Assembly (NCBI GenBank): GCA_027317185.1
Contig: DAHVFB010000031.1
Coordinates: 1-34,059, forward strand
Direction of reading: 5' to 3'
DNA length: 34,059 nucleotides
From: Deltaproteobacteria bacterium
GTDB taxonomy: Bacteria; Desulfobacterota; Binatia; Binatales; Binataceae
Positions 20,905-21,756 of this stretch are shown here, piece by piece. The notes below the pieces were generated by a model, which saw nothing but the letters and a program-made list of their open reading frames with translations, made no database searches and was not told where the DNA came from. Made by a program: the position numbers and the translations under genes. The number at the start of each line of letters is the position of its first letter. Position 1 is the first letter of the stretch.

Positions 20905-21561
20905 ATGACGCTAAAGGAACAGCTCGCGGCAATGAAGGCGGCTTCCGCCGATCGGATACCGCCGGAGATCCAAGCCGTGATGAAAAAGGGGCTTGACGAT
21001 CTGCGGGCGACGGGAATAGCCGCGCGCACGCTGAAAGTTGGCGACCGCGCACCCGAGTTTTCATTGCCCAATCAGGATGGCGCGATGGTATCCTCGGCCG
21101 CGCTGCTAACCCGAGGTCCGCTGGGGCTAAGCTTCTATCGGGGTAAGTGGTGACCCTATTGCAACGCCGAGCTGGCAGCTCTGGCGAAGGTCACCGCGGA
21201 CATCCGTGCAGCCGGTGGGAATTTGATCGCGATCTCGCCTCAGCTTGAACAATTCAGTAAGGAAATGGTCGACCAGCATAAGCTCGACTTTGACTTGTTG
21301 TCTGATCAAGGCAATGCGGTCGCCAAAAAATTCGGCCTGGTATTTCAGTTTTCCGACGAGTTGCGTCAAGCCTATAAGAAATTAGGTGTGGATTTGGAGA
21401 AATTCAACGGCGACGATTCGTGGAGCTTGCCCATTCCAGGATCGTTCGTGATCGATCGCCAGGGGATAATTCGGCACACAAATGTGGATGTAGACCATAC
21501 TGTTCGGCCCGAGCCGGCGGAAATGGTGGATGCGATCGGGTTCGCAGCCAAACAGAAATAA
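20905..21561 (+). CDS. Peroxiredoxin-like selenoprotein (UxxC), TGA at 21151-21153 read as Sec
   Basis: A thioredoxin-fold, AhpC/TSA-type protein of the peroxiredoxin-like branch with a (F/Y)YRGxWCPYC active site. Here the frame reads FYRGKW, then TGA, then PYCNAEL, and remains open to a TAA at 21559-21561. This gives 218 residues with position 83 as selenocysteine and C86 as the resolving cysteine. Both sides are clearly the same family: RAPEFSLPNQDG before, and LIAISPQ, LLSDQGNAVAKKFGLVF, LPIPGSFVIDRQGIIRH after. No frame change is needed and a SECIS-like hairpin follows. The protein would reduce peroxides or act as a thiol oxidoreductase in the cytoplasm (no signal peptide). AAGGGTG precedes the ATG. 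The alternative is a nonsense pseudogene. Confidence 0.88.
21165..21186 (+). promoter_or_regulatory. Bacterial SECIS-like hairpin
   Basis: The stem is CGCC-GAGCT / AGCTC-(T)-GGCG: nine base pairs with one bulged T at 21182, capped by the loop GGC at 21174-21176. The stem begins 11 nt after the TGA. The loop's first base is a G, 21 nt after the TGA, matching the bacterial rule (a G in the first two loop positions, about 16-37 nt downstream). It lies inside the coding sequence, as bacterial SECIS elements do. Confidence 0.75.
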
Positions 21562-21680: not shown

Positions 21681-21756
21681 GGCGGCGTACCCAAGTGGCT
21701 AAGGGAGAGGTCTGCAAAACCTCGATTCAGCGGTTCGAATCCGCTCGCCGCCTCCA
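21681..21756 (+). tRNA. tRNA-Cys(GCA)
   Basis: Complete 76-nt cloverleaf with encoded CCA. The acceptor is GGCGGCG paired with CGCCGCC, with discriminator base T73, the identity base for cysteine. The D arm is closed by CCC/GGG. The anticodon arm is GAGGT-CTGCAAA-ACCTC with anticodon GCA. The T arm is AGCGG-TTCGAAT-CCGCT. It lies 119 bp after the selenoprotein gene. Confidence 0.97.

Follow-up and report, generated by a model that had tools for sequence, protein, structure and literature searches.

A predicted peroxiredoxin-like UxxC selenoprotein gene with a SECIS-type hairpin in a Binataceae genome

Peroxiredoxin (Prx)-like selenoproteins with UXXC instead of TXXU were described in the Sargasso Sea study of 2005 (PMC1088965) and were divided into subfamilies, including 'Prx-like 1', in 2008 (GOS; PMC2398784). 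In the catalogue of 2026, Prx-like UxxC selenoproteins are found among the high-confidence predictions, and the peroxiredoxin-like family protein cd02970 is entered only with UxxS (PMC13188914). The candidate gene studied here, which a first-pass annotation had correctly assigned to an already known class, lies in a stretch of 34,059 nucleotides (contig DAHVFB010000031.1 of assembly GCA_027317185.1; hereafter the window) from a Deltaproteobacteria bacterium placed in the family Binataceae, phylum Desulfobacterota.

The reading frame and the hairpin behind the TGA

The gene was read in a single frame on the forward strand, in which one TGA is the sole internal stop (Table 1). The readthrough product matched the AhpC-TSA family in Pfam (PF00578, 7.7e-29) and carries the active-site motif FYRGKW-U-PYC; frame, stop codon and motif were all as the first-pass annotation had described them. 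Its expectation that automatic annotation would split the gene was also borne out, as the ORF listing under translation table 11 yielded two fragments, one of 82 residues ending at position 21153 and one of 112 residues from position 21223. Conservation against the nearest homologue was about equal on the two sides of the TGA (57% before it, 55% after it). The dS between the window gene and this homologue was returned as −1, which was taken as saturation, and dN/dS is therefore not given. A tRNA-Cys (GCA) gene (positions 21681-21756 of the window, +) follows the selenoprotein gene after 119 nt, a proximity that is probably a coincidence. Three other in-frame TGAs near a Cys codon in the window were dismissed as Sec candidates: they either overlap annotated-looking genes, for transketolase and a translational GTPase, in a different frame or are located at the ends of these genes.

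Table 1. Features of the candidate selenoprotein gene and of the predicted hairpin (positions in the window)
Feature	Position	Strand	Remarks
Prx-like selenoprotein gene (candidate)	20905-21561	+	218 residues with U83; ATG at 20905, TAA at 21559-21561
UGA codon predicted to encode Sec83, position 1 of the UPYC motif	21151-21153	+	homologues: TGA or TGT/TGC at the aligned codon
TGC codon, Cys86, sole cysteine of the protein	21160-21162	+	invariant in the alignment; aligned with the Prx Cys
SECIS-type hairpin, 5' arm	21165-21173	+	predicted
SECIS-type hairpin, apical loop GGC	21174-21176	+	first G 21 nt after the UGA
SECIS-type hairpin, 3' arm	21177-21186	+	predicted; U21182 bulged

The stem of the predicted hairpin begins after 11 nt downstream of the TGA, and its 5' arm pairs with positions 21177-21181 and 21183-21186, giving nine pairs and one bulge. 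The bacterial SECIS model describes an apical loop of 3-9 nt on an upper stem of 4-16 bp (PMC13188914, Fig. 2A), with a G in the first two loop positions, a spacing of 16-37 nt between the UGA and the apical loop and a free energy of at most −7.5 kcal/mol (PMC13188914). On all four counts the hairpin falls within this model: the loop of 3 nt, GGC, is carried by nine pairs with one bulge, the distance from the UGA to the loop is 20 nt, and the energy of the hairpin alone is −11.8 kcal/mol. The geometry proposed in the first pass (nine-pair stem, GGC loop, start after 11 nt, loop G at 21 nt) was reproduced in full. A scan against Rfam matched the nearby tRNA only and gave no match for the hairpin.

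A dinucleotide shuffle of the isolated 50-nt hairpin piece was not significant (z −0.43), and we therefore adopted a second test, in which only synonymous codons were shuffled and the best hairpin obeying the loop, G and spacing rules was scored. The window gene reached a z of −2.3 (p = 0.017) in this test. The mean z was −2.05 for the TGA members (n = 28) and −0.05 for the Cys members (n = 17; Mann-Whitney p 1.7e-6), and a hairpin at p < 0.05 was found in 14/28 versus 0/17 of them, respectively, all these p-values being rough, since the sequences are related and not independent. The G+C content of the Cys set was lower on average; however, no hairpin at p < 0.05 was found among the eight plasmid Cys members, whose G+C content is 55-69%. 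Within the class that has the loop at the same place as the window gene, four core pairs were invariant, two pairs were changed on both sides, and 93% of the pair cells form; the covariation score exceeded that of 500 of 500 shuffles and of every slid register. A second class (L076, L078, L080 and L083) has its hairpin a few bases farther downstream, with a GCUGC stem and the different loop GGUCAUU. The structure was thus kept while the sequence differed.

Distribution of the TGA codon and the decoding machinery

The aligned codon was TGA in 29 of the 38 homologous loci (L047 and L059 among them being apparently one and the same gene), whereas the nine others carry TGT or TGC; L085, additional to the 38, has TGA as well. 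When 395 genomes of the phylum were scanned with an orthologue cut-off of E ≤ 1e-35, an orthologue was found in 27. Exactly one TGA was present in 27 of the 28 orthologous places (the window counted), and the remaining one is an open frame with TGT at this codon. In the TGA rows of the phylum, the TGA always stands three residues ahead of the second Cys of the motif; it is followed by PYC or PFC in 25 rows and by VFC in L085. The same-codon TGA was also seen in named bins labelled Proteobacteria, Deltaproteobacteria (Myxococcota), Gemmatimonadetes (Gemmatimonadota) and Alphaproteobacteria. TGT or TGC was found at this codon in Dadabacteria, Cyanobacteria, Vampirovibrio, Clostridium and Flavobacteriales, and TGC in plasmid-borne homologues (Methylobacterium, Rhizobium, Pantoea and others). 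A plasmid of Kozakia baliensis holds a full-length Cys homologue (L091:1001-1609) without a listed gene in the PLSDB table; since its codon is TGC, we regard this as an annotation gap and not as a selenoprotein.

The family's remaining 40 genomes yielded no close orthologue, so that the presence of the gene is patchy. This absence, together with the 27 of 395 genomes in the phylum, suggests horizontal transfer or frequent loss. Four state changes were needed on a tree of the Sec and Cys members, at least two of them forced by well-supported branches; we do not claim a direction for the Sec/Cys change, because the root of the tree is unsure.

The assembly of the window comprises 4.1 Mb in 249 contigs and is 93% complete, with an estimated contamination of 4.8%. 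The first-pass annotation had implied that the organism possesses SelA, SelB, SelD and tRNA-Sec, and all four genes were found in this genome, on contigs other than that of the window: selA (570 bits), selB (364 bits, with SelB winged-helix domains), the tRNA-Sec gene (71 bits, UCA anticodon) and selD, which immediately follows selB. On contig C111, selD (L001:363-1433, minus strand) itself has an in-frame TGA (CKAAG-U-AGK), with a GGC-loop hairpin behind this codon too. The ORF listing had placed its start too late, and the same frame reads MKAKDNNAGREDLIRLTARCKAAG-U-AGKLGPADL when followed upstream. With this in-frame TGA, selD is itself a selenoprotein gene, which standard gene finding would call too short. 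As 38 of the family's 41 genomes have selA, Sec decoding is a lineage trait and does not stem from a contaminating contig. Among the other genomes with the TGA form, 24 of 25 carry selA, the exception being an 82% complete genome. The sole phylum genome with the Cys form carries selA as well, and the Cys form is thus not restricted to genomes devoid of the machinery.

Two further peroxiredoxin-like genes of this genome, both assigned to AhpC-TSA by Pfam, have a TGA before PxC. One of them, on contig C180 (L087:582-1124, +), reads FYRGYW-U-PKC and represents a third peroxiredoxin-like selenoprotein candidate. The other, on contig C205 (L086:529-1638, +), is a 369-residue frame with the TGA at FSRSADW-U-PYC, in which the AhpC/TSA domain is joined to a DsbD N-terminal-like domain (PF11412). 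A frame of approximately 400 residues with one TGA was observed in many genomes of the family. The lineage hence translates UGA as Sec, and several of its peroxiredoxin-like proteins make use of this residue.

We consider it almost certain that the window gene is a functional selenoprotein gene, in which the UGA at 21151-21153 is decoded as Sec, and that its product is a single-domain Prx/thioredoxin-fold oxidoreductase with Sec83-x-x-Cys86. The decoding would be performed by SelB and Sec-tRNA(UCA), with the hairpin directing the insertion of Sec. A pseudogene, in which a nonsense mutation had split a former Cys-type peroxiredoxin-like gene, might be suspected, as one base separates TGA from TGC or TGT and the standard ORF listing divides the gene in two. 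However, many genera of the phylum have orthologues with TGA at this same codon, as do bins placed in other phyla, the frame has no other disruption, the downstream half is conserved as well as the upstream half, and the Sec machinery is present in the genome, which makes a pseudogene highly improbable. Random nonsense mutation had already been judged unlikely in the first pass; the observations named there as speaking against a selenoprotein, i.e., a genome without selB and tRNA-Sec or scattered disruptions in relatives, were not made, as both genes are present and the relatives have TGA or Cys at one codon. The fragmentation of the assembly might also point to a TGC or TGT misread as TGA during sequencing or assembly, but independent assemblies have the same-codon TGA with the hairpin behind it, and we give such an error hardly any weight. 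Genome-wide use of UGA as a sense codon for Trp or Cys, without Sec, is extremely improbable: Cys would suit the position, yet TGA is the stop of 7 of the 23 main genes of the window, tRNA-Sec, SelA and SelB are present, and the SECIS-type hairpin is favoured in the TGA members only. The shared codon, the conservation past the TGA and these TGA stops led us to exclude all three of these explanations. The uncertainty that is left concerns the chemistry, not the decoding.

Fold and putative active-site chemistry

The AlphaFold model (mean pLDDT 96, pTM 0.92) showed a peroxiredoxin/thioredoxin fold, extended at the N terminus by an added helical part that comprises helices 3-17 and 20-36; residue 83 lies immediately before helix 84-95. 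The nearest solved folds were those of the Bcp/PrxQ and AhpE peroxiredoxins and of the disulfide reductase ResA. In the alignment with Bcp (2cx3), RGKWUPYC stands opposite PAAFSPVC, so that Sec83 occupies the Ser/Thr position and Cys86 the peroxidatic position; the classical peroxiredoxin motif PxxxT/SxxC is absent from the window protein. As there is no cysteine besides Cys86, Sec83 and Cys86 form the sole redox pair. The proposal of the first-pass annotation that the TGA replaces the first, attacking Cys is upheld by a thioredoxin-type reading of UxxC, but it fails as a direct equivalence with peroxiredoxins, in which this Sec corresponds to Thr/Ser and Cys86 to the attacking residue.

In thioredoxin-fold proteins with a UxxC or CxxC pair, the residue exposed as the nucleophile is the first of the two. 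Most likely, the window protein has a UxxC redox pair of this kind, in which Sec83 would be the exposed nucleophile and Cys86 would probably act as the resolving partner. A peroxide or a disulfide may be reduced by the Sec83 selenolate, which is positioned right in front of the active-site helix; resolution by Cys86 would give a selenenylsulfide, from which the enzyme would be recycled by thioredoxin or glutathione. It is possible, if rather unlikely, that Sec is decoded but serves another chemistry, with Cys86 as the peroxidatic residue and Sec83 as its partner, or with a disulfide oxidoreductase inactive on peroxide. That the peroxidatic Cys of Bcp/PrxQ faces Cys86 in the alignment, and the Thr/Ser faces Sec83, is consistent with this, as is the occurrence of both peroxiredoxins (Bcp, AhpE) and ResA among the nearest folds. 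Nevertheless, the established role of the first residue as the exposed nucleophile, and the fact that Sec replaced this residue and not Cys86, argue for Sec83 as the attacking residue.

Comparison with known selenoproteins

Ordinary gene calling would split or truncate this gene and its relatives in many genomes. The approximately 29 Sec and 17 Cys homologues form a set for studying how Sec and the SECIS hairpin have been gained and lost, and the picture of the Sec insertion mechanism is unchanged by the window gene. We put forward only as a rather unlikely reading that the full-length FYRGxW-U-PYC group (approximately 210-220 residues, with the helical N-terminal extension) constitutes a subfamily of its own, for the most part with Sec in the phylum, which lacks a separate entry in the 2026 catalogue and moves horizontally between Sec-decoding bacteria.

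The window protein gave a weak profile match of 38.6 bits to the SelL-related redox protein NF040769, for which the curated cut-off is much higher (120 bits), and was not counted as a member. The Sec-containing peroxiredoxins of the TxxU type share its fold and Pfam family, but their Sec replaces the peroxidatic Cys, whereas the Sec of the window protein precedes this site by three residues (UxxC) and takes the position of the Thr. The closest annotated homologues are named 'peroxiredoxin-like family protein', as is cd02970; compared by name and motif, the latter has UxxS and the window protein UxxC (UPYC). With the Prx-like UxxC selenoproteins (PMC1088965, PMC2398784, PMC13188914), the window gene shares PF00578, UxxC in place of TxxU, the existence of Cys homologues and a predicted bacterial SECIS behind the UGA. 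By this likeness of domain and motif, the window gene is a further member of the Prx-like UxxC selenoproteins known since 2005.
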